Source: Pseudomonadales bacterium
GTDB lineage: Bacteria > Pseudomonadota > Gammaproteobacteria > Pseudomonadales > Pseudohongiellaceae
Direction: 5' to 3'
Assembly (NCBI GenBank): GCA_012103535.1
Contig: WLWQ01000001.1
Location: forward strand, 992,001-1,056,000
Length of the DNA: 64,000 nt
Shown here piece after piece: positions 47,308-63,202 of this stretch. Numbering within the stretch: position 1 is the stretch's first letter; each line of letters starts with the position of its first letter. The position numbers and the translations under genes are program-made. The notes under the pieces were generated by a model, which saw only the letters and a list, made by a program, of their open reading frames with translations, did no database searches and was not told the DNA's origin.

Positions 47308-47320
47308 ATAGAATACAAAT

Positions 47321-47327
47321 GTTATGT
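47321..47327 (+). other. First core site GTTATGT
   Basis: GTTATGTTTCT at 47321 is identical to the end of attC1 (47637), placing the left recombination boundary here. No matching inverse core is seen immediately upstream, so this could be an attI-type core or the remains of an attC. Confidence 0.6.
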
Positions 47328-47341
47328 TTCTGGTGTAGAAA

Positions 47342-47587
47342 TTGAAAATACGTAACAACATTTTCAAATTGGGTTGTGTAGCTAGCATAGTGTTATCTAT
47401 TCCCGCGGCGATAATGACGACAACTATAGCTCCAGGTTCAACCGAAAATATTGATTGGATAGCACTATTAGGCCATTACGGATTTTGGTTAGTTTTCGGT
47501 CAAGCTCTATTTCTATTTTTTCTATTTGGGGTCCTAGTTAGTGCTATTCTTTACAAATTCTACAATCCGGAAAGTGACGAAACATAA
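47342..47587 (+). CDS. Cassette 1: small membrane protein
   Basis: This 81-residue protein has two hydrophobic helices (about residues 8-26 and 44-69). No family recognised. The start appears to be TTG 47342 (K-I-R-N-N-I-F-K follows); no ATG gives the first helix. Its TAA stop (47585-47587) is part of the attC inverse core. Confidence 0.55.
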   Translation: MKIRNNIFKLGCVASIVLSIPAAIMTTTIAPGSTENIDWIALLGHYGFWLVFGQALFLFFLFGVLVSAILYKFYNPESDET

Positions 47588-47643
47588 CAAACAAGTCAAT
47601 AAAGGATGCAGCTACGCTGCACCCATTACTACGGGCGTTATGT
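47582..47643 (+). repeat. attC1 (short class, 62 nt)
   Basis: Inverse core ACATAAC 47582-47588, core GTTATGT 47637-47643, inner GATGCAGC..GCTGCA hairpin. Nearly identical to attC14 and attC18. Confidence 0.88.
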
Positions 47644-47725
47644 TTCTAGGAAACTCAGTTGAGGCTGGAGAGTTTATATCCAATAGCTTTTAGTTGAAGT
47701 GAATGAATTTTGACAGGTGCCCATA

Positions 47726-48211
47726 ATGTCTGTCCTAAGCCAGGCTGAAATGTTTTATGACGCATATGAAGTTCTGCAAGAAAGCAATAATGCATTTGTA
47801 GAAGCAGAAAACGCGCAGAGTGCCGACTCAGCAGAGGCAAAGTTTGGTCGATGCCATACTATGCAAGTTGAGGTTGTTTGCTTATCTTTTTCAGTGGAGC
47901 TTTATGTAAAGGCCCTACATATCGCAATTTCGGACGAATCACCAAGAGGTCACGATACTTTGGAGCTCTTTCGTAAACTACCGGAAAACGTTAGAGACAC
48001 ACTTTACACATTTCCGTCTGTGAACAAGTACGGCTGGAGCTTCTCTCAATTCGAAGATGAAATTGGGGCTATAAGCAAGAGTTTTGTGAAGTGGCGATAT
48101 TCTTACGAAGAAGATTCGCTGTGGTTTAATACCTACTTTGCTTTAGTATTCATTGAAGCTCTTCGGTTTGCCATTGCTTCTGCGTGCAAATATAAGGCCG
48201 AGGCGGAGTAA
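47726..48211 (+). CDS. Cassette 2: HEPN-like protein
   Basis: This 161-residue helical cytoplasmic protein has a middle section F-S-V-E-L-Y-V-K-A-L-H-I, then R-G-H-D-T-L-E-L-F-R-K-L. This resembles HEPN-type domains, where a conserved helix is followed by G-H-D-L..L. The catalytic R-x4-6-H of ribonuclease HEPNs is not clearly present, so it may be non-nucleolytic. ATG 47726 has CAGGTG upstream; an in-frame GTG lies nine bases earlier. Confidence 0.55.
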   Translation: MSVLSQAEMFYDAYEVLQESNNAFVEAENAQSADSAEAKFGRCHTMQVEVVCLSFSVELYVKALHIAISDESPRGHDTLELFRKLPENVRDTLYTFPSVNKYGWSFSQFEDEIGAISKSFVKWRYSYEEDSLWFNTYFALVFIEALRFAIASACKYKAEAE

Positions 48212-48283
48212 CATGCTGCTTTTTATTGCGCAGTATCAGAAAGTAAATTGGATGAAAGAAAATTTACCGTAAGTGCATGCGAA

Positions 48284-48399
48284 ACATAACAAACAGTTCT
48301 ATGGGTCGGCCTCACCACACAACAAATGCGGATGGCCTACGGCCATCTTATCCGCATTTGCTGCGCGGCGAGACCTGCGCCTAAACATGGGCGTTATGT
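48284..48399 (+). repeat. attC2 (long class, 116 nt)
   Basis: ACATAAC 48284-48290 to GTTATGT 48393-48399. The central apex carries GGCCTACGGCC and flanking ATGCGGAT/ATCCGCAT arms. Confidence 0.9.
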
Positions 48400-48446
48400 T
48401 CCTCGAATTAGTTACGAGCCGCGTCAAGTTTATGTAAGGACATCTA

Positions 48447-48935
48447 ATGGATATTTCCAAGCTCAATGAATGGTTTACCCTCACAGCAAATCTAGGCGTT
48501 ATCGCTGGCATCATTTTCCTTGGTTTTGAAATTCAACAAAACACCGAAATGATGCAAGCCCAAACTAGAGATTCTATGAGTGAAAAACAAATGGATTGGT
48601 TTATGGGTATTGCGACGAACTTAGATACAGCGGAAATTCATAACACTTTCCAAAGAGAAGGATTGAATAACCCCGAAAGAGAGCCTTTCGAGGAGATGGC
48701 CTTTATATTTACGATCTTTGCAGGTCTAAGAATGTGGGAAAATGAATGGTACCAGTACCAAAAAGGCCTCTATGAAGAAGAGGAATTTTTGGCAAGAAGT
48801 AGAGCTTGGCCAGGTGCACTCAGACAAACTGGATATTCTCAAGTTTGGGAAGACGTTAGACTCCAATATGCTCCAGAATTTGGAGAATATTTGGATGCTA
48901 TTCTAAACGATGATCAATCTCTGAACCAAAACTAG
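48447..48935 (+). CDS. Cassette 3: family A membrane-anchored protein
   Basis: This 162-residue protein has one N-terminal transmembrane helix (L-T-A-N-L-G-V-I-A-G-I-I-F-L-G-F) ending at the E-I-Q-Q-N-T motif, then a helical soluble domain with W-E-N-E-W-Y-Q-Y and a C-terminal Y-A-P-E-F-G-E-Y-L. It is one of six members of the same uncharacterised family in this array (others at 49057, 51689, 53898, 54560 and 62679). Function unknown. Confidence 0.8.
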   Translation: MDISKLNEWFTLTANLGVIAGIIFLGFEIQQNTEMMQAQTRDSMSEKQMDWFMGIATNLDTAEIHNTFQREGLNNPEREPFEEMAFIFTIFAGLRMWENEWYQYQKGLYEEEEFLARSRAWPGALRQTGYSQVWEDVRLQYAPEFGEYLDAILNDDQSLNQN

Positions 48936-48961
48936 AAAACCTTAACACTAGTGCAAACGGA

Positions 48962-49019
48962 ACATAACAAACAAATCAAGGAGATGCGCTACACGCACTC
49001 TTTATTAAAAGCGTTATGT
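48962..49019 (+). repeat. attC3 (short class, 58 nt)
   Basis: ACATAAC 48962-48968 to GTTATGT 49013-49019, inner GATGCGC..GCGCACTC variant. Close to attC16 and attC21. Confidence 0.88.
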
Positions 49020-49056
49020 CCCTAATTAGACAAACTGCATTCGGATAAAAAGAAGC

Positions 49057-49542
49057 ATGAACTGGGATACAGTCGGTGCAATAGCAGAACTCATTGGTGC
49101 AGTCGGTGTAATTCTGTCATTACTTTACTTGGCCCGACAAATTCGGCAAGGTACTCAAGCTTCCCGACGTGTAGCTGTTCGCGAACTCATGGGAGCTGGT
49201 GACAATCTATTGCAACAACTCGGCGACGACCGAGAGCGTGCGGACCTTTGGGTTAGAGGACTTGAGACTCCTGAGAAACTCGACGATGCAGAGAGAATCC
49301 AGTTTTCATCCCTTCTTCTTCAGAATGTGCGAACCTGGGAACAAGCCTATCACTGGAGTAAGACCGACCAATTAGAAGGATGGGTGACCGAAGGGAATGA
49401 TGCCCTTCGTAATGCAATCCTTGACTCTCCGGGTTTTTCAGTTTGGTTTGAAAGACGTAAGGCTTGGATTAGTTCAGAATTCCGACAGGTGCTCGAAAAT
49501 GAATTGAGGATCATCGATGAAAAGAACTCAACGGCTCAATAA
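49057..49542 (+). CDS. Cassette 4: family A membrane-anchored protein
   Basis: This is a 161-residue member of the array's largest family. The N-terminus is W-D-T-V-G-A-I-A-E-L-I-G-A-V-G-V-I-L, one helix, then Y-L-A-R-Q-I-R-Q-G-T. A basic helical domain (R-R-V-A-V-R-E-L) follows, with F-S-V-W-F-E-R-R-K-A-W near the C-terminus. Unknown function. ATG 49057 lies 37 nt after attC3. Confidence 0.8.
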   Translation: MNWDTVGAIAELIGAVGVILSLLYLARQIRQGTQASRRVAVRELMGAGDNLLQQLGDDRERADLWVRGLETPEKLDDAERIQFSSLLLQNVRTWEQAYHWSKTDQLEGWVTEGNDALRNAILDSPGFSVWFERRKAWISSEFRQVLENELRIIDEKNSTAQ

Positions 49543-49596
49543 TCAGACTGATAGTTCACAGCAAGAGTCGTAAATGAATACGAAAGTGCTAACGGA

Positions 49597-49712
49597 ACAT
49601 AACAAACAGTTCAATGGGTCGGCCTCACCACACAACAAATGCGGATGGCCTGCGGCCATCTTATCCGCATTTGCCGCGCGGCGAGACCTGCACCTTAACA
49701 AGGGCGTTATGC
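49597..49712 (+). repeat. attC4 (long class, 116 nt)
   Basis: ACATAAC 49597-49603 to GTTATGC 49706-49712, apex GGCCTGCGGCC. Confidence 0.9.
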
Positions 49713-49732
49713 GCCTATAGGAAATCACTGCA

Positions 49733-50110
49733 ATGACTGAATACGAGTTCTATGACTTACTTGTGAACTTTGGTTCAACAGTTACTGAGATGGTTGCAGT
49801 TTTCATTTCTGTTTTCGTAGCCTATATCGTATGTGTGTATGCTGTAGGCTCTAAACTGAGTACGATTCAGTCGGTAGCTCTGAGTGTGGTGTACTCGGTT
49901 TTTTCACTATTTTTTGTATTCCTGGTATATAACTCTTTAAGTACACTGCAAACCATGGCTAACGATTACAATAACATTGAAGGTGATGCATCACTCGGGA
50001 TCGGGGCAATTGCTCCAATATCCCTATTATTGGCATGGCTAGCAAGTATTGTGTACATGTATCAAGTTCGCAGGAATCGTACAAATCAGAATAGTGCAGA
50101 CGGCGCATAA
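49733..50110 (+). CDS. Cassette 5: family B multi-span membrane protein
   Basis: This 125-residue protein starts M-T-E-Y-E-F-Y-D-L-L, has three transmembrane helices and a short loop (L-Q-T-M-A-N-D-Y-N), and ends with a basic tail (Y-Q-V-R-R-N-R). It shares layout, N-terminal M-T/S-E motif and stop position with the cassette 7 and cassette 10 proteins. Unknown function. The TAA stop (50108-50110) lies within attC5. Confidence 0.7.
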   Translation: MTEYEFYDLLVNFGSTVTEMVAVFISVFVAYIVCVYAVGSKLSTIQSVALSVVYSVFSLFFVFLVYNSLSTLQTMANDYNNIEGDASLGIGAIAPISLLLAWLASIVYMYQVRRNRTNQNSADGA

Positions 50111-50220
50111 CAAACAGTTCAATGGGACGAGCTCACCACACACCAATTGCACATGGCCTTCGGCCATTCTATGCGCAATCGCTGTGCGGCGAACTCTGCG
50201 CCTTAACATGGGCGTTATGT
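50105..50220 (+). repeat. attC5 (long class, 116 nt)
   Basis: GCATAAC 50105-50111 to GTTATGT 50214-50220, apex GGCCTTCGGCC with GCAC/GTGC-type arms. Confidence 0.9.
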
Positions 50221-50351
50221 TTCTCGGTTTGACTCCTATCTCTTCCTCAGCCACCGAATTTCCCAGTGGCTAACTTTGGACTGCGACCGCAACTCTCACG
50301 ATCAATCCCTGTACAAATTTATATGGTGCGGCCAACCCATATAAATTTGCT

Positions 50352-50471
50352 ATGTCTCTAGATAGTCTACTAGCCATGGAAAACTACGCTGAACAGCAGA
50401 GATTGCGACGATATAGCGCAAAAGCATTGATCTTGATGATCATCCTTGGTACCTATATCTCTACACAATAA
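50352..50471 (+). CDS. Cassette 6: 39-residue single-span peptide
   Basis: ATG 50352 encodes MSLDSLLAMENYAEQQRLRR, then a hydrophobic helix A-L-I-L-M-I-I-L-G-T-Y-I and a stop at 50469. It is the only plausible full ORF in a 420-nt cassette whose remaining bases look non-coding. A second ATG at 50376 is possible. A start with GGAGG at 50496 opens a frame that runs through attC6 and was not accepted. Confidence 0.4.
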   Translation: MSLDSLLAMENYAEQQRLRRYSAKALILMIILGTYISTQ

Positions 50472-50583
50472 GAATAAATCTCGGAGGCAGGCTAAATGCT
50501 TGCGATACCCGTTGGTAGGCTCGGTGGAGCCCTCCCCTTTCTGGCACATTTGGTCTATCAGACCAAGCTCCTGCGCTGCCGAA

Positions 50584-50646
50584 ACATAACAATGAAATCA
50601 AAAAGGACACGCGCGCTTCGCGCGCCTATTATCAAGGGCGTTATGT
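50584..50646 (+). repeat. attC6 (short class, 63 nt)
   Basis: ACATAAC 50584-50590 to GTTATGT 50640-50646, inner GCGCGCTTCGCGCGC hairpin. Like attC15 and attC20. Confidence 0.88.
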
Positions 50647-50703
50647 GTATCGCATCCAGCCATTTTCTTAATTGGATCAATTAGTTTCAATAATGGAGTC
50701 TGA

Positions 50704-51147
50704 ATGACTGAAACAGATTTGGTAGCACTATGTTTAGAAATTCTTAGTGCCAACTACATTATAGTCGGGGGGTACATAAGTGTTACAGCGGCTTTATACA
50801 CTGTTGCCTACATGACAGGAACCAATCTAAAAATTCGCTCATTGATTTTCATTATCATAACGTATTTCTCGATCATGGTTGCTCTTACGTTGCTACATGT
50901 TATTTACATTGAAGCTTTATCTGGAGCAGTGGAGAGTTTAATAAATCTAAATTCTGACGGTGTTCAGTTATCACAACTGTCAGAGGTACTGATAGGCCAA
51001 TTGGAAGCAAGTGAAGGCCTGTGGATCGCATTAGCATTATTAGTACTGCCTTTTGAAATTGGTGCTATTGTATATTTAATCTACCAATACCGAATAAGCA
51101 GAGCTTCAATAAGTAATGAAAACGAATCGAGTACTATCAACACATAA
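50704..51147 (+). CDS. Cassette 7: family B multi-span membrane protein
   Basis: This 147-residue protein has an M-T-E-T-D-L-V-A-L-C start, three or four transmembrane helices, a hydrophilic loop (E-S-L-I-N-L-N-S-D-G) and a final helix (W-I-A-L-A-L-L-V-L-P). It is related in layout to the cassette 5 and 10 proteins. GGAG precedes ATG 50704. The TAA stop (51145-51147) lies in attC7. Confidence 0.7.
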   Translation: MTETDLVALCLEILSANYIIVGGYISVTAALYTVAYMTGTNLKIRSLIFIIITYFSIMVALTLLHVIYIEALSGAVESLINLNSDGVQLSQLSEVLIGQLEASEGLWIALALLVLPFEIGAIVYLIYQYRISRASISNENESSTINT

Positions 51148-51258
51148 CAAACAAATCAACAAGGTCGCAGAGAGCGCAACCCACTTTGCGATGGCCTTCG
51201 GCCATTTTTTCGCAAAGCGGCTCGCACTCCCTGCTGCCTATTATTAAGGGCGTTATGT
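51142..51258 (+). repeat. attC7 (117 nt, hybrid)
   Basis: ACATAAC 51142-51148 to GTTATGT 51252-51258. The outer arms (ACAAATCAA..; CTATTATTAAGGGC) are of the short class but the centre carries the long-class GGCCTTCGGCC apex, so it looks like a chimera of the two classes. Confidence 0.85.
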
Positions 51259-51326
51259 GTGCAGCCTCTTTATCGTCCAGCGAGAATTCGAAATATTTAA
51301 ACAATCATTTTTAGGGCATCCAAATA

Positions 51327-51554
51327 GTGAAAATTTATGGCCGGACCTTGAAGAACGACTCAGAGCTTGAAATACTTTCTGAAGCAACACTAGTTACGGA
51401 AACATCTACACTACGAGATTTGGCCTCATTTCTTTATCGTTGTGCAGATGCAATTGAAGAGCAAGGAGAGAGCTGGGAGCATGAACATTTCGAAAGTAAC
51501 GAAGCTATCAGCCCACACTTCGTGGTGTACAACCCGAATGTTGTCAATACTTAA
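51327..51554 (+). CDS. Cassette 8: Imm32-like small protein
   Basis: This 75-residue cytoplasmic protein has the pattern E-I-L-S-E-A-T-L-V, then L-R-D-L-A-S-F-L-Y-R-C-A-D-A-I-E, then W-E-H-E-H-F and S-P-H-F-V-V-Y. This matches the immunity protein 32 (Imm32) family, found often in cassettes and toxin loci. No cognate toxin is adjacent. The start is GTG 51327. Confidence 0.6.
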   Translation: MKIYGRTLKNDSELEILSEATLVTETSTLRDLASFLYRCADAIEEQGESWEHEHFESNEAISPHFVVYNPNVVNT

Positions 51555-51594
51555 GTGTATTTCCAGAATAGGAAAATGAATTGACGTGTGGGAC

Positions 51595-51653
51595 ACATAA
51601 CAATCAAATCAAAAAGGAAGCACTGCGTGCTCCTATTATTAAGGGCGTTATGT
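51595..51653 (+). repeat. attC8 (short class, 59 nt)
   Basis: ACATAAC 51595-51601 to GTTATGT 51647-51653, inner GGAAGCAC..GTGCTCC hairpin. Confidence 0.88.
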
Positions 51654-51688
51654 TCCTTGTTTTTCAGAGTGCCAACTGAGATAGAAAA

Positions 51689-52174
51689 ATGAATTGGGAA
51701 GCTATTGGAGCGATAGGTGAAATTATTGGTGCAATCACAGTTCTTGCAACTCTGATTTACTTAGCACGGCAAATTCATCAAGCAAATAGTATAGCTGTTG
51801 CATCAGCCGAGGTTACACTGAGGGAAGCCGCAAACGAAATATATAAAAGTATGACGGACAACTCGGAATACGCATCACTAGTTGCGAAACTAGCATCGAA
51901 TTCCCAAGATTTGAACGCTGGAGAGGAGCAACAAGCTATCGCTTTTGTAGGACTAAATATAAACCTTTGGTCTGCCGTTTCCAGAGCACATGAGCAAGGC
52001 CTTATCACCAGCTATACACTCAATAACTATCTAACTGATGTAGAAGCGACTCTAGATATGTACCCTGGAAGTGCTAAGTTTTTCAAGGCACAAACTAAAC
52101 ACTACAAATTTTCGTCAGGTAGCTCTCCAATTATCGATAGACTATTGGAAGCACTTTCGGAGCGAGGTCATTAG
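51689..52174 (+). CDS. Cassette 9: family A membrane-anchored protein
   Basis: This 161-residue protein has the N-terminus W-E-A-I-G-A-I-G-E-I-I-G-A-I, one transmembrane helix, then Y-L-A-R-Q-I-H-Q-A-N. It is closest in the array to cassette 4. The soluble part is acidic and helical with a central L-W-S-A-V-S-R-A-H. Function unknown. Confidence 0.8.
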   Translation: MNWEAIGAIGEIIGAITVLATLIYLARQIHQANSIAVASAEVTLREAANEIYKSMTDNSEYASLVAKLASNSQDLNAGEEQQAIAFVGLNINLWSAVSRAHEQGLITSYTLNNYLTDVEATLDMYPGSAKFFKAQTKHYKFSSGSSPIIDRLLEALSERGH

Positions 52175-52191
52175 GGGCATGAGAAATCGGA

Positions 52192-52307
52192 ACATAACAA
52201 ACAGTTCAATGGGACGAGCTCACCACACACCGATTGCACATGGCCTTCGGCCATTCTATGCGCAATCGCTGCGCGGCGAACTCTGCGCCTTAACATGGGC
52301 GTTATGT
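52192..52307 (+). repeat. attC9 (long class, 116 nt)
   Basis: ACATAAC 52192-52198 to GTTATGT 52301-52307. Nearly identical to attC5 over the central segment. Confidence 0.9.
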
Positions 52308-52336
52308 GCACACACTTTGGAGAACTTGGATAAGCC

Positions 52337-52762
52337 ATGAGTGAAGCAGAGCTTATTTCAACACTTATAGAATCAAACTCTCTAATGTGGACTATTTTAC
52401 AATGGTGGGTGAGTTTTAGCTTTGCAGTTATGGTGGCCGCATATGTGGGGGCAGAAAGACTAACCAGACGATTGATCGCTATTATTTGTGGGATGTATTT
52501 TATAGCTTGGTTGGCAGTGGCCAGTAACTTAATTGTTCTGTCAGAGCAAAACGGAGCAATATTTCAAGAACTTGATATATTGAGAGAAGCTGACCAATTG
52601 AGTCTAGTTGGATTATCAAGACTTGACTCAGCCGAAGGTCTCTTTGGAGTTCCGACTGCGATGCTGTTTTTATTGTCAATCTTCTTTACTTATGGGTTTG
52701 TCTTGTATTGCTATAAAAGTGCAAAAAGAGGTCAAGAAGTTCGTGCTTCATCGGGCACATAA
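52337..52762 (+). CDS. Cassette 10: family B multi-span membrane protein
   Basis: This 141-residue protein has an M-S-E-A-E-L-I-S-T-L start and three helices with a loop (E-L-D-I-L-R-E-A-D-Q-L) before the last, and a basic tail. It has the same layout as cassettes 5 and 7. Its TAA (52760-52762) is in the attC10 inverse core. Confidence 0.7.
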   Translation: MSEAELISTLIESNSLMWTILQWWVSFSFAVMVAAYVGAERLTRRLIAIICGMYFIAWLAVASNLIVLSEQNGAIFQELDILREADQLSLVGLSRLDSAEGLFGVPTAMLFLLSIFFTYGFVLYCYKSAKRGQEVRASSGT

Positions 52763-52872
52763 CAAACAGTTCTATGGGTTGGCTTCACCACACAACAAAT
52801 GCGGATGGCCTTCGGCCATTTTATCCGCATTTGTTGCGCGGCGAACCCCACGCCTAAACATGGGCGTTAGTA
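52757..52872 (+). repeat. attC10 (long class, 116 nt)
   Basis: ACATAAC 52757-52763 to GTTAGTA 52866-52872, a core variant. Apex GGCCTTCGGCC. Confidence 0.88.
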
Positions 52873-52888
52873 AGCGCAGGAGATTTAT

Positions 52889-53365
52889 GTGAAAACTGTT
52901 GAGTTAATTTTGTTGATGTTATTTTCGACTTCATTGCTTGTTCAACCAATTGAACAAGAAAACGATCCTCACCCTAGACAAGATGAAGCAATAGAGATCG
53001 CAAACGAGTGGTTAGATCTTTTGGAGGAAAACGACGTAGCGAATTCGTTCGACCTTTATACGGATTTGTATAAGTCAATGACTACCACAATTACTTGGGA
53101 ACAGGAACTTGAGACTGAGAGAACAACGTTAGGTAAATTAGTTTCGCGAGAATTAAGGCGCGCAGTGATGTATGAAAACCCTGAAAACGCGCCTTTGCCA
53201 GGAACATATGCAGCCGTCGAGTTTGATAGCGTCTATGAGCACGCTAGAAGGCATTCTCAAACTATTATTCTCCATTCTGAAAACAGCGAACCATTCAGGG
53301 TAATGAGGCGAGAAGTACGGCAACTACTAAATAGGAGTTCACCAGCCAGTGATGGCGCCAACTAA
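52889..53365 (+). CDS. Cassette 11: DUF4019-type exported protein
   Basis: This 158-residue protein has a short signal peptide (M-K-T-V-E-L-I-L-L-M-L-F) and a DUF4019-like domain: A-N-E-W-L-D-L-L-E-E-N-D, T-W-E-Q-E-L-E-T-E-R, L-G-K-L-V-S-R-E and P-G-T-Y-A-A-V-E-F. Function unknown. GTG 52889 follows AGGAG. The TAA stop (53363-53365) overlaps attC11. Confidence 0.7.
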   Translation: MKTVELILLMLFSTSLLVQPIEQENDPHPRQDEAIEIANEWLDLLEENDVANSFDLYTDLYKSMTTTITWEQELETERTTLGKLVSRELRRAVMYENPENAPLPGTYAAVEFDSVYEHARRHSQTIILHSENSEPFRVMRREVRQLLNRSSPASDGAN

Positions 53366-53475
53366 CAAACAGTTCTATGGGTTGCAGCCAGCACTGCAAG
53401 TTTCGCAATGGCCTTCGGCCATTTTATCGCGAAACTCGCAGTACAGCCTGCCACGCCTAAACATGGGCGTTAGGT
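53360..53475 (+). repeat. attC11 (long class, 116 nt)
   Basis: AACTAAC 53360-53366 to GTTAGGT 53469-53475. GTTAG-type cores and a GGCCTTCGGCC apex. Confidence 0.88.
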
Positions 53476-53496
53476 GTACACGCTCAGAACAGAATC

Positions 53497-53754
53497 ATGA
53501 AAATCGGACGAACATTTAGAATTTATCTGAGCAAAGCTCTGCTATTTGTTTGCTATATTTTTACCTGCTGGATTGCGGTTCAGTGGTTTTTTTCGGCCAT
53601 CCGGTTTGTGATGTTTGGAGAACCGGAATATGGATCAAGTTATCTATTCTCTGAATCTATCAGGTCAGGACTTCTTATCATCTTGAGCATTTGTAGTTGT
53701 TTGTTGCTAATTTCTCAGCTAAAGAAAACAGATAAGAATAAATTATCGAGGTAA
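53497..53754 (+). CDS. Cassette 12: small two-span membrane protein
   Basis: This 85-residue protein has helices at about residues 10-33 and 53-73 and a lysine-rich tail (L-K-K-T-D-K-N-K). Family not recognised. It starts at ATG 53497, 21 nt after attC11. Confidence 0.6.
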   Translation: MKIGRTFRIYLSKALLFVCYIFTCWIAVQWFFSAIRFVMFGEPEYGSSYLFSESIRSGLLIILSICSCLLLISQLKKTDKNKLSR

Positions 53755-53776
53755 GCGAGGGCGATTTTGTCCAGAC

Positions 53777-53839
53777 ACCTAACAATCAAATCAATCAGGG
53801 ACAGGGCTGACGCCCTGCCCATTATTAAGGGCGTTATGT
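53777..53839 (+). repeat. attC12 (short class, 63 nt)
   Basis: ACCTAAC 53777-53783 to GTTATGT 53833-53839, inner ACAGGGC..GCCCTG hairpin. Confidence 0.85.
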
Positions 53840-53897
53840 CTACCAAGGCGACTCCCTACAATACGGGTAGATTTTTTTAGAGAATTTTTTGCAAATA

Positions 53898-56197: not shown

Positions 56198-56260
56198 ACA
56201 TAACAAACAAGCCAAAAAGGACACGCGCGCTTCGCGCGCCTATTATTCAGGGCGTTATGT
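56198..56260 (+). repeat. attC15 (short class, 63 nt)
   Basis: ACATAAC 56198-56204 to GTTATGT 56254-56260, inner GCGCGCTTCGCGCGC hairpin. Confidence 0.88.
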
Positions 56261-56308
56261 TTCTAGTTCCGGATCGAGAAAGGCTGGTTACTTTTTAAGG
56301 ATCAGAGC

Positions 56309-56728
56309 ATGTTGGTTAAATCCGCAATGATGGTTGTGCTTGTTTATGCTGTACTTTCTTTACTGCTGTGTATTGGTATTGCAGCGTCCCCCAGCCTTAT
56401 CGTTTTATTGGCTGATGTTTTCCAATCCGAGACCGGAAAATACATATCTTCATCCATAGATTTGATAATGGGAGTCATGTTTTTTGTTGCGGCTCCTGCG
56501 GCGAAGTTTAAGCTATTCTTCAGAATATTTAGTGCAGTGCTATTTTTGGCTGGAATCTTCTATTATTTACTTCCAACAGACAATTGGGCAGCCTACATAG
56601 ATTTCTGGTTGATCGATAACCCATTATTACTTCGTGTTTTCGGCGGAGGATTTGGAATTCTATTTTGTGGCTTTACTATTTATGCTGCTGTTCCAAGGAA
56701 TGGTGAGCTCGACGAGGCTTCAACTTAG
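56309..56728 (+). CDS. Cassette 16: four-span membrane protein
   Basis: This 139-residue protein has about four hydrophobic helices with short loops. Residues 70-95 (F-F-R-I-F-S-A-V-L-F-L-A-G-I-F-Y-Y-L-L) and a C-terminal G-F-G-I-L-F-C-G-F-T are membrane segments. No family recognised. AAGGAT precedes ATG 56309. Confidence 0.6.
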   Translation: MLVKSAMMVVLVYAVLSLLLCIGIAASPSLIVLLADVFQSETGKYISSSIDLIMGVMFFVAAPAAKFKLFFRIFSAVLFLAGIFYYLLPTDNWAAYIDFWLIDNPLLLRVFGGGFGILFCGFTIYAAVPRNGELDEAST

Positions 56729-56738
56729 TGCCAACGAA

Positions 56739-56796
56739 ACATAACAATCAAATCAAGGAGAGGCGCTACACGCCCTCTTTATTAAGGGCGTTATGT
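56739..56796 (+). repeat. attC16 (short class, 58 nt)
   Basis: ACATAAC 56739-56745 to GTTATGT 56790-56796. Confidence 0.88.
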
Positions 56797-56815
56797 TTCT
56801 GCATATGAAAGAGAG

Positions 56816-57139
56816 ATGAGTTTAGAATTTCAATTGTTTGTTTATGCGCTGATTTTGGCACAAGGTGTTAGTGCAATTCTTTATCTCGTAAATTTGAGAA
56901 AATTGGACGCATTGATTACAAGTCGAAATCTAAGTAATTTGTCAGAGCTTACTCACAATGGATTAACAGTATTTGGAACAAAAAAATATCATAGAGCCGC
57001 AATGTTTCTCCTTGCTAGGAAATTTAGGGATACAGCGGATAAAGATGTCTTGAAATTAGCTTCGAGAACGCGAGTATTCTTAATATGCGGGACAGTACCT
57101 TTCATACTACTTATTCTGATTTATTTCGTGGTGATATGA
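56816..57139 (+). CDS. Cassette 17: two-span membrane protein
   Basis: This 107-residue protein has an N-terminal helix (F-V-Y-A-L-I-L-A-Q-G), a basic cytoplasmic middle (L-L-A-R-K-F-R-D-T) and a C-terminal helix (F-I-L-L-I-L-I-Y-F-V-V-I). Unknown function. ATG 56816 lies 19 nt after attC16. Confidence 0.6.
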   Translation: MSLEFQLFVYALILAQGVSAILYLVNLRKLDALITSRNLSNLSELTHNGLTVFGTKKYHRAAMFLLARKFRDTADKDVLKLASRTRVFLICGTVPFILLILIYFVVI

Positions 57140-57155
57140 TCATGAGGCTCACGAA

Positions 57156-57217
57156 ACATAACAAACAAATCAAAAAGGTCAGCGCGCTGCGCGCGCCTAT
57201 TATTAAGGGCGTTATGT
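57156..57217 (+). repeat. attC17 (short class, 62 nt)
   Basis: ACATAAC 57156-57162 to GTTATGT 57211-57217, inner CAGCGCGCTGCGCGCG hairpin. Confidence 0.88.
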
Positions 57218-57233
57218 GCGCCTAGATAATGCT

Positions 57234-57653
57234 ATGTATCAGTATGATTTCTATAAAACGAAAACACTTTGTCCTAGATGTGCTGGAGAACTCAATATTA
57301 GTCAAGGCCGTGACGGCCCCAACGCCCTTCTAAATTGGACGGAAGGTGAAAAATCTCCTCAACCACTTCCAGGCCAAAATGACTTAGACTTGGAGAAATA
57401 TAGTCTGCCTAGTAGTTTCGATTTAGGATCTCCAATTTGCAAGAGTTGTGGATATCATTGCAATTTTCTGCATGGCATTTTAGAAAACGGAATTTGGTCT
57501 AGAACGACTTTTATATGCGATGCCGTTTCAGCAACTCAGGAAGTGAACGGATTTAGAATGTGCTCCGATTGTTTTGAAGCATGGGAGTTCCCGGAGGCAA
57601 TGCAATTCTCAGAGTGCCCCAATTGTAAGCTAATGACTAAACTAGCGATCTAA
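57234..57653 (+). CDS. Cassette 18: zinc-ribbon protein
   Basis: This 139-residue cytoplasmic protein has paired cysteine motifs: C-P-R-C near residue 12, C-K-S-C-G-Y-H-C near the middle, C-S-D-C and C-P-N-C near the end. These give up to four zinc-ribbon knuckles. No family recognised; nucleic-acid or protein binding is likely. ATG 57234 is used because the earlier GTG start lies inside the attC core. Confidence 0.65.
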   Translation: MYQYDFYKTKTLCPRCAGELNISQGRDGPNALLNWTEGEKSPQPLPGQNDLDLEKYSLPSSFDLGSPICKSCGYHCNFLHGILENGIWSRTTFICDAVSATQEVNGFRMCSDCFEAWEFPEAMQFSECPNCKLMTKLAI

Positions 57654-57671
57654 GCCGGAGTCCTAAATGGC

Positions 57672-57733
57672 ACATAACAATCAAGTCAATAAAGGATGCA
57701 GCTATGCTGCACCCATTACTACGAGCGTTATGT
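57672..57733 (+). repeat. attC18 (short class, 62 nt)
   Basis: ACATAAC 57672-57678 to GTTATGT 57727-57733. Close copy of attC1 and attC14. Confidence 0.88.
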
Positions 57734-57752
57734 GTACAACTAAAGAGCTTTT

Positions 57753-58193
57753 ATGAATACCGAGACTGTTAGTACCGAAGAAGTAAAAACTGCAATTGAC
57801 GACTGGTATAGTGCGTTTGATTCGCCAGCTATCGATCGCCTTGTTGAGTCAAATTTCGGGTTTGAGAACGGGTATGGATTTAGAGCAATCAATCCACCCA
57901 TTCAACTTTCGGAATCAGATCGCCGAACGCTTTGGAATACATTCTTCGATTCTATGGAGTACTACAATATCGCTATTGAAGATATTGAGATCGAGACAAT
58001 TGGTAATGTGGGTGTGGCCTGGGGTTACCATTCAGAAAAATTTAGGATGAAAAGCGGCGAAGAAGAATCTTTAAGGGTTCGTTTCTCATTTACGGTATTG
58101 AAATCCGATACTGGACAAACAAAAATCGTATTAGGTCATCGGGATGTTCAGGAGTTTAACGCCGAAGGGCGTTACGTTCGACAAATAAAATAG
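57753..58193 (+). CDS. Cassette 19: NTF2-like/SnoaL-type protein
   Basis: This 146-residue protein has a helical start (V-K-T-A-I-D-D-W-Y-S-A-F-D-S) and beta strands typical of NTF2-like folds (V-A-W-G-Y-H-S, L-R-V-R-F-S-F-T-V-L-K). Members bind small ligands or catalyse simple chemistry; specificity unknown. Soluble, cytoplasmic. Confidence 0.65.
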   Translation: MNTETVSTEEVKTAIDDWYSAFDSPAIDRLVESNFGFENGYGFRAINPPIQLSESDRRTLWNTFFDSMEYYNIAIEDIEIETIGNVGVAWGYHSEKFRMKSGEEESLRVRFSFTVLKSDTGQTKIVLGHRDVQEFNAEGRYVRQIK

Positions 58194-58213
58194 AAGTCCA
58201 GCACGACTCGGAC

Positions 58214-58274
58214 ACATAACAATCAAATCAATCAAGGAGACCGCAAGCGGCACCCATTATTCAGGGCGTTATGT
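58214..58274 (+). repeat. attC19 (short class, 61 nt)
   Basis: ACATAAC 58214-58220 to GTTATGT 58268-58274, inner GACCGC..GCGGCACC arms. Confidence 0.88.
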
Positions 58275-58287
58275 TCCTTCGTGCATC

Positions 58288-58313
58288 TTGACAAAGTTAT
58301 CATTTATGATAAC
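58288..58313 (+). promoter_or_regulatory. Candidate promoter and operator of the toxin-antitoxin cassette
   Basis: TTGACA at 58288-58293 is followed by the dyad GTTATCAT/ATGATAAC (58296-58313), whose right arm overlaps a -10-like TATGAT (58305-58310) at non-standard spacing. The toxin ATG is only eight bases beyond the dyad, so the message may be leaderless or nearly so. The antitoxin HTH probably binds the dyad. Confidence 0.55.
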
Positions 58314-58321
58314 CTTTATAG

Positions 58322-58639
58322 ATGTCATGGAAAGTCACGTTTTTCAGTACCAAAGTTAAAGAAGAAACTCTCAATTTCCCAAAAGGAATATTAGCTAACT
58401 TTCTCCATATAGCTGAAATTATTGAAGAATTCGGTCCGTCTATCGGCAAGCCCTATACAGCCCCTATGGGGAAAGGGCTTTTTGAGATACGGGCAAAAGG
58501 CAAGGAAGGTATTGGGCGCTCGCTCTTTTGTACCGTCAAAGGCAAGGAAATCATAATTTTGAATTCCTTCATTAAAAAAACACAAAAGACTCCCAAAAAA
58601 GAGATCGACAAAGCCCGCAGACGAATGTTGGAGTTATGA
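58322..58639 (+). CDS. Cassette 20: HigB/RelE-type toxin
   Basis: This 105-residue RelE-superfamily, Gp49-like toxin has F-L-H-I-A-E-I-I-E-E-F-G-P, then L-F-E-I-R-A-K-G-K-E-G-I-G-R-S-L-F and a C-terminal I-L-N-S-F-I-K-K-T-Q-K-T-P. The family cleaves mRNA on the ribosome. No ribosome binding site precedes ATG 58322. The antitoxin gene starts one base after its stop. Confidence 0.85.
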   Translation: MSWKVTFFSTKVKEETLNFPKGILANFLHIAEIIEEFGPSIGKPYTAPMGKGLFEIRAKGKEGIGRSLFCTVKGKEIIILNSFIKKTQKTPKKEIDKARRRMLEL

Positions 58640-58640
58640 A

Positions 58641-58946
58641 ATGAGCAGACCTACATTAAAGTCCTTTAAGAAAGAGGCATTCAAACGAAAAGGAGTGAAA
58701 GGGCAATACGAAGCTCTTACTCCAGCTTATGAAGTTCGTAAAAAATTAATTGCATTGCGCCAGCAAGCAGGATTTACCCAAGAACAAGTTGCTGAGAAAT
58801 TACATACAAACAAAAGTAACATTTCCAGATTAGAAAGCGTGGAGTCAGAAATCTCTCCAAAGCTTTCCACACTTACAGACTACGCTGAAGCAATTGGTTA
58901 TCAACTTCAAATTGATTTCGTGCCCAAGCAAGGGTCAGGAACATAA
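58641..58946 (+). CDS. Cassette 20: HigA/XRE-type antitoxin
   Basis: This 101-residue protein has a Cro/C1 HTH (L-R-Q-Q-A-G-F-T-Q-E-Q-V-A-E-K-L-H-T-N-K-S-N-I-S-R split across about residues 39-63), partner of the toxin. GGAG precedes ATG 58641. The toxin-first order is typical of HigBA. The TAA stop (58944-58946) lies in attC20. The pair probably stabilises the array. Confidence 0.88.
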   Translation: MSRPTLKSFKKEAFKRKGVKGQYEALTPAYEVRKKLIALRQQAGFTQEQVAEKLHTNKSNISRLESVESEISPKLSTLTDYAEAIGYQLQIDFVPKQGSGT

Positions 58947-59003
58947 CAAACAAATCAAGAAGGACACGCGCGCTTCGCGCGCCTATTATTAAGAGCGTTA
59001 TGT
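58941..59003 (+). repeat. attC20 (short class, 63 nt)
   Basis: ACATAAC 58941-58947 to GTTATGT 58997-59003, inner GCGCGCTTCGCGCGC hairpin. Confidence 0.88.
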
Positions 59004-59109
59004 TCCTAGCGGAATCAGCAATACCCGAAAATGGAAAATGAAATTCAACATACATGGGCGCTAGTTGGTCGCGCAATGTGCCTCCGATGAATAGAAGATC
59101 GCATTAGAT

Positions 59110-60156
59110 ATGAATATAAAACATCAGCGAGTTTGGCTTTTAAGAATTCTTGCGGCGATTGCTACTGTCAGCAGTATTTTCATTTTCGCACCTTGGCTCG
59201 CAGCCATTGCGTACTTAAAACCACTGCCCGCTACAGTGCAGGAACAAGTTGATGATGCCGTCAATTATCAGCTGGACGGGATCATCGTTTATGTGGATCG
59301 ACCAGGAGAAGCACCTAATTTTTATGCCGCCGGATGGAATGATAGAGAACTTCTAACTCCCGCCGACCCACACGCTCTTTTCAAGATTGCCAGTATCAGC
59401 AAACTATATATAGCCGCCGCAACGGCTATGTTGATCAGCGACAAGCAATTGGATTTAGGCAGCACAGTCGCAGATTACTTCCCCGAACTCGTTGGAAAAA
59501 TAAAACATGCCGATCGGATTACACTTAGGATGTTGCTACAACACAGGAGTGGCATTCCTAATTGGAATGAAGATCCCGATCGCTGGACTATCTCGTCATC
59601 GAATGTAAATGATAATCTGGCGCTGGTATTCGATGATCCTGCCGATTTTGAACCAGGGGCTCGTTACGATTATTCCAACACAAATTACTTATTGATTGGT
59701 AATATTCTCGATCAGGCATTGGGCTATCATCACCAGCTATATATTCAACGCGAAATTCTCGGCCCGCTCGGATTGACGCAGACCTTCGCATTGGTGAGTG
59801 ATGTTAACCCCGCCCTCGTCTCCAGTGGGTATGACACGAGATATGATGAGGATTTCAAAACGCGCGTTCATATCGTTCCAGGCGGAACTATGGTAGCTAC
59901 TGCGGAAGATACTGGGATATTTCTTCGGGCATTGAATGATGGGTCACTCTTTACTGAAAATGAGCAGGAAATCTACTCCTCTGTCTATGAATACGAGCAC
60001 ACCGGTTTGTTGGCCGGGTATTCCAGCATAGCGCGCTATCACAAGGACATCGATGCCGTGGTCATCCAGTTCGTGAATACGAGCGGTGGTAACTCGTGGG
60101 TAACAACCGAGGTTATTTATAGCCGAATTGTTCAAATTTTGCGCGATAGGCAGTAA
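59110..60156 (+). CDS. Cassette 21: serine hydrolase, beta-lactamase/PBP4*-like
   Basis: This 348-residue protein has an N-terminal signal or anchor helix (residues 10-36) and a serine-hydrolase domain: S-I-S-K at 95-98 (nucleophile Ser95, Lys98), Y-S-N at 188-190 and H-T-G at 297-299. These are the three class C/DD-peptidase motifs. It could be a peptidase or esterase; a drug-resistance role is not implied. It is one of the largest genes in the array. ATG 59110. Confidence 0.88.
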   Translation: MNIKHQRVWLLRILAAIATVSSIFIFAPWLAAIAYLKPLPATVQEQVDDAVNYQLDGIIVYVDRPGEAPNFYAAGWNDRELLTPADPHALFKIASISKLYIAAATAMLISDKQLDLGSTVADYFPELVGKIKHADRITLRMLLQHRSGIPNWNEDPDRWTISSSNVNDNLALVFDDPADFEPGARYDYSNTNYLLIGNILDQALGYHHQLYIQREILGPLGLTQTFALVSDVNPALVSSGYDTRYDEDFKTRVHIVPGGTMVATAEDTGIFLRALNDGSLFTENEQEIYSSVYEYEHTGLLAGYSSIARYHKDIDAVVIQFVNTSGGNSWVTTEVIYSRIVQILRDRQ

Positions 60157-60228
60157 TGATTCTTGACAATGAAACATCGGCTGCGCTATTACTCCGCAAT
60201 GTACCCATCAAGAGAACTGAGTGTCGGA

Positions 60229-60286
60229 ACATAACAATCAAATCAAGGAGATGCGCTACGCGCACTCTTTATTAAAAGCGATATTT
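60229..60286 (+). repeat. attC21 (degenerate, short class)
   Basis: Inverse core ACATAAC 60229-60235 is intact and the inner GATGCGC..GCGCACTC arms match attC3. The core reads GATATTT instead of GTTATGT, so recombination there should be poor. Confidence 0.7.
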
Positions 60287-60516
60287 TAGAGTTGTGTAGG
60301 TGAGAACACCTCCGTGCTGCCGAAATTAGAAACCATAACATATTGATATTTATAGATATTACCTAAATACTAATTCCGGTAATCTTTATTACTATAAGAT
60401 TAGGGCGGTTTCCGCCCTCTTATTTCTGATAAAGAAAACTTTGCTTGGAACAAGGAAAACCTTATTCTGAAGCAGATACATTATCTACTTATCCAACTTC
60501 GCTGGAGTGTATGGGC
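60287..60516. other. Non-coding part of cassette 22
   Basis: A/T-rich sequence without a gene. A hairpin AGGGCGG-TTT-CCGCCCT (60402-60418) followed by CTTATTT looks like a weak terminator or leader structure. Confidence 0.5.
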
Positions 60517-61002
60517 ATGCTAAATCTATTTAAGTGTAAGCTCGGAACGACTCTATTAGTTTTGCCGCTATTCCTAGTTGCCTGCACGAATCAAACTCCG
60601 CTAATTTTTGTTTCCATACCGGAAGGAGCAACTATTTCAGAAATTAGCACTGGCAATGCTCTCGGCATTGCTCCTACTCGGAAAAGCCTCGACATAGATT
60701 CTCTATCTAGTCTTGATTCTGAAGGTTGTTATATCTTGGAGGGTGTAGCTGCACGCTGGGTTAGTGGCGCAACAGTTCAGATCGAGGAGCTGAAATTATG
60801 CGATGGTAAATCAGGACCTTATGCCGTCAGATTAGTTCGGCCAACTGAACATCCTGATCTAGAAAGAGACCTGGAAGAGGCTACCTCTATGAAAGCTGCT
60901 CGTATCGCTGCCTATGAGTTTGAACTAGAAAGACTCAGACTAAGGCGCAATTCCGGAACGGGCCCAATAGGGCATCAGTTCTCAACTTATAAGCATGAGT
61001 AA
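60517..61002 (+). CDS. Cassette 22: lipoprotein
   Basis: This 161-residue lipoprotein starts MLNLFKCKLGTTLLVLPLFL with a lipobox ending L-V-A-C. The first mature strand F-V-S-I-P-E-G-A-T-I is PEGA-like. Rest unassigned, with a long charged C-terminal helix (L-E-R-D-L-E-E-A-T). ATG 60517 has GGAG nine bases upstream; ATG 60511 is too close to it. Confidence 0.65.
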   Translation: MLNLFKCKLGTTLLVLPLFLVACTNQTPLIFVSIPEGATISEISTGNALGIAPTRKSLDIDSLSSLDSEGCYILEGVAARWVSGATVQIEELKLCDGKSGPYAVRLVRPTEHPDLERDLEEATSMKAARIAAYEFELERLRLRRNSGTGPIGHQFSTYKHE

Positions 61003-61186
61003 GTGCCAATACGCAAGCATAGAGCACTTATCTGCACGAAGCTATAGAGTCAGGAAGTCTTGGATCAAGTCTTGGTTCGCACATTAGTTGCACATAGTTC
61101 GACCTGAACTTAAACGACTAAGTTTTAATGTCTGCCTCTTATCCTGAGCAGCCGCGAGCTAGAAGCAATATTGATGTACGACCAAC

Positions 61187-61240
61187 ACATAACAATCAAA
61201 TCAAAAAGGACATGCGCGCTTATTGTTAAGGGCGTTATAT
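61187..61240 (+). repeat. attC22 (short class, 54 nt)
   Basis: ACATAAC 61187-61193 to GTTATAT 61234-61240, a reduced inner arm (ACATGCGCGC). Confidence 0.8.
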
Positions 61241-61301
61241 CTCTTATCCAATTTATTGGTAAACGAGAATAGTAGTAACAGCAATTTAGATATCAACCGA
61301 A

Positions 61302-62171
61302 ATGACTAGCGATATGAATACGAGCACCAAGATATTGATTGTCCTGGCCACAATTGTCGGTTTTGCTTTGGTGCTAGCTAACACAAGGGTAGGTGTATTC
61401 TTGGTTTTCGACGTGGTTGGTGGATCTACTGACAATTTGGTCACAGATACGAGTACTGGCCCGCTTAGTACGAGTCGCTCAATACTCGCTGACTCAAGAT
61501 TTAGTTTGCCACCTGAGTTGGAACAACCTAGCGGGATTGTGGTAGACGAAAGCACAGTGTATATCTCAACAGACCAGGCCGAACTTTTTGTTCTTGATAG
61601 GCAGTTTATACTAAAAGAGCCAAAGTCAGATCTTATTGGTGGAATCTTGCTTCTTAAACAAGGTTCGCTAGAAGCCATTACTCTGGTTGATGAACAAGTA
61701 GTGGGCATCGGAGAAATTGGTGTTATTGGAGTTTGGGCGAGAGCAGCGAATCATTGGGAGAGGCTCGAAGACTTGCCACTGCCTGAATCATTGAGCAATA
61801 GCGAATTTACTGGCGTTTGCATGAATGGCATGGGTAGGTGGGCAACAACTGATGGCGCACAAGAACTATTCAACTTGGACGACGGCTCCGAGCACAGTAT
61901 TAGCTACGGCTCATTCGCCAAGCCTGATGGCGATCTTACGCAATTGATGATTTCCGGTGTCGATTGCAATGAAGACAATTTTTATTTGATTACGGAAAAC
62001 TTTACATCAATTATAGTGTTAGATCTCGATTTCCGGGTCATGGAAGTAATTGGGATCGACGCAGGTGAAGCATCCGATATAGCGATACACAATCTCAGCG
62101 CTTATGTAACTGTTGATCACAACCTTTTTGATGACCGGCCTCCGGTTTACAGATATGAACTATCACAGTAG
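61302..62171 (+). CDS. Cassette 23: SdiA-regulated/YjiK-like anchored propeller protein
   Basis: This 289-residue protein has an N-terminal transmembrane helix (residues 9-28) and a propeller-like domain. L-E-Q-P-S-G-I-V-V-D-E-S-T-V-Y-I-S-T-D-Q-A at about 75 resembles SdiA-regulated (YjiK) proteins, with later strands F-Y-L-I-T-E-N and S-D-I-A-I-H-N. ATG 61302 or 61314. Confidence 0.6.
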   Translation: MTSDMNTSTKILIVLATIVGFALVLANTRVGVFLVFDVVGGSTDNLVTDTSTGPLSTSRSILADSRFSLPPELEQPSGIVVDESTVYISTDQAELFVLDRQFILKEPKSDLIGGILLLKQGSLEAITLVDEQVVGIGEIGVIGVWARAANHWERLEDLPLPESLSNSEFTGVCMNGMGRWATTDGAQELFNLDDGSEHSISYGSFAKPDGDLTQLMISGVDCNEDNFYLITENFTSIIVLDLDFRVMEVIGIDAGEASDIAIHNLSAYVTVDHNLFDDRPPVYRYELSQ

Positions 62172-62188
62172 ATATTGGAGCAGGCGAT

Positions 62189-62242
62189 ACATAACAAACA
62201 AATCAGAAAGGAAACGCGCGCCTATTGTTAAGGGCCTTATGT
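62189..62242 (+). repeat. attC23 (degenerate, 54 nt)
   Basis: ACATAAC 62189-62195 to CTTATGT 62236-62242. The first base of the core is changed (GTT to CTT). Confidence 0.75.
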
Positions 62243-62267
62243 ACCGAAGTAGCCTGAGAATTAACAG

Positions 62268-62645
62268 ATGAAAATTCAAGTTGTAAATCCATCGATAGAA
62301 CTAGACAGTGCTGAAGAGATGGATTTTTTAGAATTTCCAAATTTTGGATCAGGTGGCACGGGTGCTTTTTGGTCTAATCCCGGCGGCCCGTCTCCATGGG
62401 AAATGCATCCGGAATGTGATGAACTGCTACATATTATTGAAGGAAGAATTGAAGTTGAGATTCTACCTAAGGATGGCGGGGAAAGTATCATCTCTGTTCT
62501 TCCCGCTGGTTCCTTTCTAGTAGTTCCGAGAGGTTGTTGGCATCGTCAACATATAATCGAGAGAAGCAAAGAATACTATGTTACTCCTGGGCCAACGCTT
62601 CATTCTCATGATGATGATCCAAGGGCAAAAATTGAGGGCGCATAA
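62268..62645 (+). CDS. Cassette 24: cupin-domain protein
   Basis: This is a 125-residue soluble single cupin with P-W-E-M-H-P-E-C-D-E-L-L-H-I-I-E-G and P-A-G-S-F-L-V-V-P-R-G-C-W-H. Metal ligands are visible (His and Glu in motif 1, His in motif 2). Its TAA (62643-62645) is in the attC24 inverse core. Role unknown. Confidence 0.8.
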   Translation: MKIQVVNPSIELDSAEEMDFLEFPNFGSGGTGAFWSNPGGPSPWEMHPECDELLHIIEGRIEVEILPKDGGESIISVLPAGSFLVVPRGCWHRQHIIERSKEYYVTPGPTLHSHDDDPRAKIEGA

Positions 62646-62670
62646 CAAACCGTTCAAAGGGTTGCAGGCA
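62640..62670 (+). repeat. attC24 (truncated)
   Basis: GCATAAC 62640-62646 and the first arm (ACCGTTCAAAGGGTTGC) are present, but the second arm and core are missing and the next gene begins at 62679. This is a half-site remnant. Confidence 0.75.
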
Positions 62671-62678
62671 GGTATTAA

Positions 62679-63134
62679 GTGAAATTTAAACTACAAGATT
62701 ATGCACAAATAGCTGAGATTGTGTCCGCAATAGCGGTGATTGTAACTCTGTTGTACCTTGCCACCGAAATAAGAATCAACACCGAGGCCGTGCAAGACAA
62801 TTCCGCACAAGAAGCGTCAAGGTATATGACTGAATTAAATGTAACGTTGATGGAAAATGATCATCTAATTAGGTTGGTTAGCTCCCTCGGCAGGGACGAT
62901 CAAGAACTAAGTGCTGAAGATCGGATTCGATTACAGGCTTTTTATGCATACGTACTCTTTACTTTGGACAGCATGTACAAAGTAGCGCTTTCTGGAAACT
63001 TATCTGAAGAAGAGACGATTGCCGTGAACAATCGAGCAGGAAATTACGCCAATGTCCCAGGATTGCGCGAAGCAGCATTGAGTAATGAACATACACTCAC
63101 ACAAGGTTTTCTGAGCTGGATGGGTTATAGATAA
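62679..63134 (+). CDS. Cassette 25: family A membrane-anchored protein
   Basis: This 151-residue protein has an N-terminal helix I-A-E-I-V-S-A-I-A-V-I-V-T-L-L-Y leading to Y-L-A-T-E-I-R-I-N-T. Soluble helical domain. Member of the six-gene family. The start is GTG 62679, eight bases past the attC24 remnant, so it may once have had an upstream attC junction. Confidence 0.78.
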   Translation: MKFKLQDYAQIAEIVSAIAVIVTLLYLATEIRINTEAVQDNSAQEASRYMTELNVTLMENDHLIRLVSSLGRDDQELSAEDRIRLQAFYAYVLFTLDSMYKVALSGNLSEEETIAVNNRAGNYANVPGLREAALSNEHTLTQGFLSWMGYR

Positions 63135-63145
63135 ACGCCAACGGA

Positions 63146-63202
63146 ACTCAACGATCACTTCAATCGGAAGCTGTCTGCTCAGTCTTATTAAGGGCGTTAT
63201 AT
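63146..63202 (+). repeat. attC25 (degenerate, 57 nt)
   Basis: Inverse core ACTCAAC 63146-63152 is mutated; the core GTTATAT 63196-63202 is nearly normal. It forms the right boundary of the array. Confidence 0.7.

Follow-up and report, generated by a model that had tools for sequence, protein, structure and literature searches.

An attI-headed cassette array, probably left behind when an integron lost intI, in a genome with one detected, distant integron integrase

How a large array of integron cassettes comes to stand in a chromosome with no integrase gene (intI) beside it, and whether such an array still works, are the questions raised by a 64,000-nucleotide stretch of the genome of a Pseudomonadales bacterium of the Pseudohongiellaceae (the window; positions 992001-1056000 of contig C2, in an assembly of 4.53 Mb, four contigs, C1 to C4, and 97.73% completeness). 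Hereafter C denotes contigs (of this source genome unless a relative is named), G genomes of relatives and L fetched sequence stretches. A first-pass annotation described the array (Table 1) as similar to a CALIN, the term for clustered attC sites with no integron integrase, and as preceded by ordinary chromosomal genes. We found it to be headed by an attI site of its own, related to the attI that adjoins a full-length intI on the same contig, at a distance of 1.03 Mb. Very probably, the window array stems from an integron copy from which intI was lost, with attI and cassettes kept.

This answer draws on the DNA directly before cassette 1. The sole gene of the genome above the NCBIfam integron integrase cut-off (C2:7506-8444; 349.3 bits in one scan and 349.7 in another, cut-off 265) is an open frame encoding a full-length protein of 321 amino acids, and the leader between this gene and its first cassette has one further copy in the genome, at the head of the window array (80%, E 5.6e-60), where 202 of 253 bases are identical to C2:7178-7430. 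A sequence-only model, R3, built from four attI sites linked to intI (source genome; G024; G038, as L047; G039, as L048), recognizes an attI within this copy (67.1 bits), and what had been taken for ordinary chromosomal genes before 47321 is thus a diverged attI leader. The four intI-linked attI share a pair of boxes (TTCCAA or TTTCAT, 17 nucleotides, TARACT) and the core TACAAATGTTA. In the window copy both elements have stayed intact, although the leader has drifted elsewhere. By analogy with class 1 integrons, the box pair may be a cassette promoter. The leader also contains a terminator-like hairpin (47083-47102), oriented in the direction that transcription of intI would take, with a counterpart at about 7395-7415 of L002; its stem is kept between both copies and its loop bases differ. 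A second hairpin, between box pair and core, was considered on account of inverted repeats seen by eye in several attI, and was rejected when none of 10 folded sites gave z < -2 (range -1.82 to +1.44).

Behind this attI, as in a complete integron, stand tandem attC-bounded cassettes in a single orientation, with the longer open reading frames between the sites on the plus strand. There are 24 attC sites, 16 short (about 60 nucleotides) and eight long (about 125 nucleotides), the majority of which retain their boxes, and one truncated remnant at 62634, much as the first-pass annotation had it (about 25 sites or remnants of mixed types, with plus-strand cassettes). The attC models R1 and R2 were built from the window sites, which makes their window scores circular. 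Independent support for the sites is provided by the long type, in which 19 of 44 predicted pairs changed on both sides with pairing kept; by a two-ended attC pattern with 11 matches genome-wide, against none with a reversed control; and by sites matching the window types elsewhere in the source genome. Rfam gave no match within the window, nor in the first 1 kb of L114. The claim that the window encodes no IntI-like recombinase also holds, the sole IntI match at E <= 10 covering 31 residues (E 5.6), and the intI expected of a complete integron is absent both from the window and from the 1.6 kb upstream of its attI. With 24 sites, where a CALIN is defined by at least two attC and no nearby integrase, and where CALINs average almost six (PMC9024848), the label fits the cluster, which is a large one; but the array is not headless, for it has its own attI, and an intI lies on the same contig.

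The search of the whole genome for intI and attI, proposed by the first-pass annotation, yielded this one intI with its attI; integrase matches below the cut-off are also given by 14 control genomes, as expected of Xer recombinases. The intI array runs towards the contig start and carries both the short and the long attC types of the window array. It is incomplete in the assembly, because contig ends fall inside cassette arrays: one end of every contig does so (right end of C1, L018; left ends of C2, C3 and C4, L002, L019 and L020), and the C1 end and C4 start share 164 bp at 97%. The order at the locus, namely, ilvD (above the NCBIfam ilvD cut-off), a gene of 345 amino acids, intI and attI, is orthologous in the source genome, G024 and G038. 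An intI downstream of ilvD was observed repeatedly in this genus (L002 7494-11815; L042; L047; L109), and Xanthomonas, which belongs to a different taxonomic order, likewise has intI downstream of ilvD (PMC12444791). Stretches fetched around seven intI loci from other genera within the order contained no ilvD, and the same was true of the stretches from G039, L050, Alteromonas sp. KUL106 and Seongchinamella unica; some of these stretches are short or stop at a contig end. In L050 (8700-10000; from CALTDI010000006.1), a stretch that by eye resembles a transposase lies between intI and its attI core, and the box pair does not adjoin the core.

The window head is one of several. Over the whole genome, R3 gave seven matches at E <= 10, the best six of which are heads of attC arrays, five of them without intI (three strong and two weak; Table 1). 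Five of the six matches other than that at intI lie within 1 kb upstream of an attC on the same strand (chance per site 0.0052, overall about 2.4e-11). The strong heads have the same box pair and core as the intI-linked attI, and the orphan heads of this genome show no IntI match on the expected strand in the 1.6 kb upstream at E <= 1. The core TACAAATGTTA alone has six exact matches in the genome, four of them at array heads, against one for the reversed control. Three candidates were taken as chance, since the surrounding 18-20 kb fetched for each lacked an R1 attC at E <= 0.1: the seventh R3 match (C4:491057, E 0.42) and the exact core matches at C2:1846985 and C3:619146. An additional head with the core only, at C2:1589.8k (about 6757 of L024), was seen by eye and is not reported by R3 at E <= 5.

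A similar layout recurs in sister species of the genus, which is Pseudohongiella-like. At E <= 0.01, R3 matched eight of 25 genomes within the genus, the source genome included, and none of 13 outside it; among four genomes reached through their intI loci, three matched at E <= 1 (one of them G024 again) and G041, with an insertion beside intI, did not. Each counted once, the attI sites at E <= 0.01 number 31, of which 23 are followed on the same strand by an attC no more than 1.6 kb away (19 of 27 when the four intI-linked sites are excluded), two of the 23 resting on weak attC (G022, 23.3 bits; G039 C19, 19.7 bits). As for the remaining eight, the contig ends 0.1-1.4 kb downstream in three (G038 C9, the start of G039 C45, and G039 C12), two have only weak, more distant attC (G039 C45 at 1.7 kb and C55 at 3.2 kb), and three have none (G024 at 2.52 Mb, G039 C16, and G019, with an R3 match limited to the box half and 1.5 kb covered). 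A differently composed set of 28 sites, with the two weak heads of the source genome but without G012, G019, one G038 site and the intI sites of G038 and G039, had 21 followed by attC within 1.6 kb. Contig ends cannot explain a layout of one intI and many attI, because G024, closed in a single contig of 6,586,598 bases, has one intI (E <= 1e-40) and seven attI sites. Orphan heads of G011 and G022 have a common upstream gene (84% over 533 amino acids), which suggests that some orphan heads persist across species splits. In G024, at 3.007 Mb (L029 10586-10678), an attI and a short IntI fragment lie about 20 kb downstream of intI inside a continuing attC run, as if two integrons had fused in tandem.

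Loss of intI was seen directly at one orthologous locus. In G011, ilvD and the 345-amino-acid gene are followed, after 232 nucleotides, by an attI that has both box pair and core; 0.7 kb beyond it stands an attC (31.5 bits). There is no intI, and this is a clean loss with attI and attC retained. G011 as a whole gives no integron integrase match at E <= 1e-40, a threshold that also missed the broken copy of G016, so that a broken intI may lie elsewhere in it; it has five attI, all five with attC after them. For 29 heads, the preceding 1.6 kb was searched for remnants of IntI with five IntI queries (tblastn); two of these heads, in the source genome and G024, have an intact intI. Among the other 27, one (G016) has a long copy, broken in frame, where the contig ends, and three, all in G024, have N-terminal fragments on the divergent strand (Table 1). 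These fragments lie 188-271 nucleotides from the orphan attI, and the corresponding distance in the intact integrons of the source genome and G024 is 210-276. We regard intI loss in this lineage as well supported, and the window head as probably a formerly complete integron that lost its intI.

Whether the distant IntI still reaches the window array is a separate matter, on which cassette 1 bears most closely. This cassette differs from one in the intI array at 7 of 319 bases (2.2%, blastn), whereas the leaders differ at 51 of 253 (Fisher, 6e-13), and hence one or both attI took up the cassette well after the attI had diverged; the match runs from crossover to crossover (the G^TTA points), which points to IntI-mediated insertion. 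Orphan-headed and intI arrays also share 325 bp at 95% between the starts of C3 and C2, both contig ends, and, in G024, 466 bp at 95.7%. It is tempting to speculate, though we would put the chances somewhat below even, that in this lineage a single IntI serves several dispersed attI, each heading its own array, so that cassettes can be loaded at several chromosomal addresses. The 24 attC of the window stand behind a leader that includes attI and perhaps a promoter for the cassettes; under such a mechanism, the distant IntI would insert and excise cassettes at this head in trans. If so, many arrays filed by software as integrase-less relics would be working outposts.

The sharing data fit IntI acting in trans, but they also fit an earlier period in which an intI still belonged to the window integron, or parallel capture of cassettes from outside sources, and several results weigh against the picture just given. 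Among 14 array stretches, the window array has no other match of at least 95% over at least 150 nucleotides to another array of the genome, and one at 80% over 550 nucleotides; since just one of its cassettes is nearly identical to one elsewhere in the genome, exchange looks rare. At 2.2% divergence the transfer of cassette 1 is an old event, and an intI may still have been present beside the window attI when it took place; besides, a leader and a coding cassette may differ in evolutionary rate. As to loss, of the 27 heads that lack an intact intI, 23 show no IntI match on the expected strand at E <= 1. At the window head the five tblastn queries found no remnant (a 16-residue match, E 0.58, is on the other strand), the DNA alignment to intI is no better than chance (295 of 300 shuffles reach its score), and nothing of intI is left between the tannase-family gene on the left and the leader. 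A second intI may be missing from the assembly, which is 97.73% complete, and a sigma-70 consensus scan of the leader gives no promoter call, the box pair included. There is real room, in our estimate again a little short of an even chance, for the array having been filled, cassette 1 included, by its own intI in cis, which was then lost, so that the array is now inert and unserved by the distant IntI. The divergence of cassette 1 and its being the only nearly identical cassette agree with this, as do the degenerate last attC and 60226 site, and the five G011 heads without an intI match at E <= 1e-40 suggest that attI can persist unserved. An inert array does not, however, readily account for an attI core and box pair left intact in a leader that otherwise drifted, for attC that mostly keep their boxes, or for the full-length IntI present in the genome.

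Two other origins are far less probable. IntI reportedly uses attG sites, in work said to be by Loot et al. in 2024, and an ordinary CALIN could have been seeded at a chance site of this type, attI-like only through selection of the core. Such use is remarked on in PMC12901181, and the weakest heads (C2:740465, and C2:1589.8k with its core only) could be of this kind; the window head, with homology over 253 bp, far past the core, is not an insertion site devoid of attI homology, and the strong heads share box pair as well as core with the intI-linked attI, which makes seeding of the window array very improbable. We give as little credence to the window array being the displaced tail of the intI array, split off by rearrangement or misassembly: the attC types common to both arrays and the imperfect assembly inside arrays at one end of all four contigs would allow it, but each array has its own attI, 20% diverged, both inside the same contig, and closed G024 has the same layout of one intI and several attI.

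Table 1. Features of the window array and of related attI heads and IntI fragments. Plain coordinates refer to the window.
Feature	Position	Strand	Basis
Left flank, tannase/feruloyl esterase family gene, outside integron	45323..46927	+	PF07519, E 1.5e-126
attI leader block, copy of leader beside distant intI	47072..47324	+	202/253 identity
Perfect 20-bp palindrome, palindromic too in intI copy	47156..47175	.	sequence
attI	47222..47328	+	R3 (model from four intI-linked attI), E 5.5e-18
Box pair (TTCCAA and TACACT, 17 nt apart), perhaps a cassette promoter	47245..47273	+	alignment; role inferred
attI core TACAAATG^TTA; crossover point 47321/47322	47314..47324	+	sequence
Cassette array	47322..63205	+	24 attC and one remnant
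Cassette 1 (ORF, open reading frame, 47342-47587)	47322..47641	+	312/319 identical to L002 4484-4804, intI-array cassette
attC short	47579..47646	+	attC models
attC long	48279..48406	+	attC models
attC short	48959..49022	+	attC models
attC long	49592..49719	+	attC models
attC long	50100..50227	+	attC models
attC short	50581..50649	+	attC models
attC long	51139..51261	+	attC models
attC short	51594..51654	+	attC models
attC long	52187..52314	+	attC models
attC long	52752..52878	+	attC models
attC long	53355..53482	+	attC models
attC short	53774..53842	+	attC models
attC long	54385..54512	+	attC models
attC short	55091..55158	+	attC models
attC short	56195..56263	+	attC models
attC short	56736..56799	+	attC models
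attC short	57153..57220	+	attC models
attC short	57669..57736	+	attC models
attC short	58211..58277	+	attC models
attC short	58938..59006	+	attC models
attC short, 3' box decayed	60226..60289	+	attC models
attC short	61184..61243	+	attC models
attC short	62186..62245	+	attC models
attC remnant, 5' part only	62634..62661	+	sequence
Last attC (short type), degenerate	63143..63205	+	attC models
Right flank, RsgA-type GTPase, extends past window	63221..64000	+	family match
Array head at intI			R3, E 8.6e-23
Array head	C3:4402		R3, E 9.0e-11
Array head	C3:859625		R3, E 8.1e-6
Array head	C3:892720		R3, E 0.037
Array head	C2:740465		R3, E 0.24
IntI fragment	G024, 6.52 Mb		E 3e-15
IntI fragment, two frames	G024, 2.26 Mb		E 3e-5
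IntI fragment, 27 residues	G024, 3.01 Mb		E 3e-4

The GTPase that the array abuts had been singled out as housekeeping-type and deserving attention; it is indeed of RsgA type, and looks like plain chromosomal flank. It is the only match of its kind in the source genome at E <= 1e-30, and at the same threshold it is matched in 12 other genomes of 37. Eight of these 12 loci were fetched, and they lack the left-flank genes and the further right-flank genes tested, and any R1 attC at E <= 0.1; they provide no before-and-after comparison for the window locus. Among the cassettes, those at 48447, 49057, 51689, 53889, 54512 and 62679 (also in L019 and L042) encode small proteins with, by eye, an alike N-terminal membrane-like segment, and the five that were scanned (48447, 49057, 51689, 54512 and 62679) match nothing in Pfam at E <= 0.01. 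Another family of small, membrane-like proteins seems to be repeated at 49733, 50704 and 52337, and a toxin-antitoxin-like cassette (58322-58946) encodes a Gp49-family protein followed by a helix-turn-helix protein.

CALINs are about as numerous as complete integrons (2961 and 2760, respectively; PMC9024848). IntegronFinder does not detect attI outside class 1 (PMC9024848), and because of this attI-headed arrays like that of the window would go unseen, indistinguishable from random clusters of attC. Here, an attI model made for the genus tells the two apart, and at one orthologous locus an array headed by attI is what the loss of intI has left. Should the distant IntI work in trans, integron capacity would have to be counted per attI and not per integrase. 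Much of the background is already known: CALINs, whose cassettes can reportedly be mobilized in trans by an IntI encoded at another site (PMC12444791, PMC9668308), intI decay, several intI per genome, and one attI-headed CALIN (PMC9892861). Titles and abstracts of the literature, most subscription papers being outside the search, gave no report of attI heads dispersed through a genome.

With CALINs in general, the window array shares an attC array without a nearby integrase, and differs from them by a genuine attI with a conserved leader, by several such heads per genome and by far more attC than the average. Decay of intI is common, nearly one third being pseudogenes, and duplication is one proposed origin of multiple intI per genome (PMC2426708); the parts of that work drawn on here concern intI, not retained attI platforms. 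In Xanthomonas, chromosomal integrons with intI downstream of ilvD have undergone progressive intI loss, with CALINs at other loci, and attI at dispersed CALINs is not among the features described in the part of PMC12444791 drawn on here. Closest in form is the Shewanella prophage M16-3 (PMC9892861), with a complete integron and a CALIN, each array starting with attI. There, however, the attI-headed arrays are a single pair in one prophage, whereas here the heads are dispersed through the chromosome in several species, with diverged attI, IntI fragments and orthologous intI loss.

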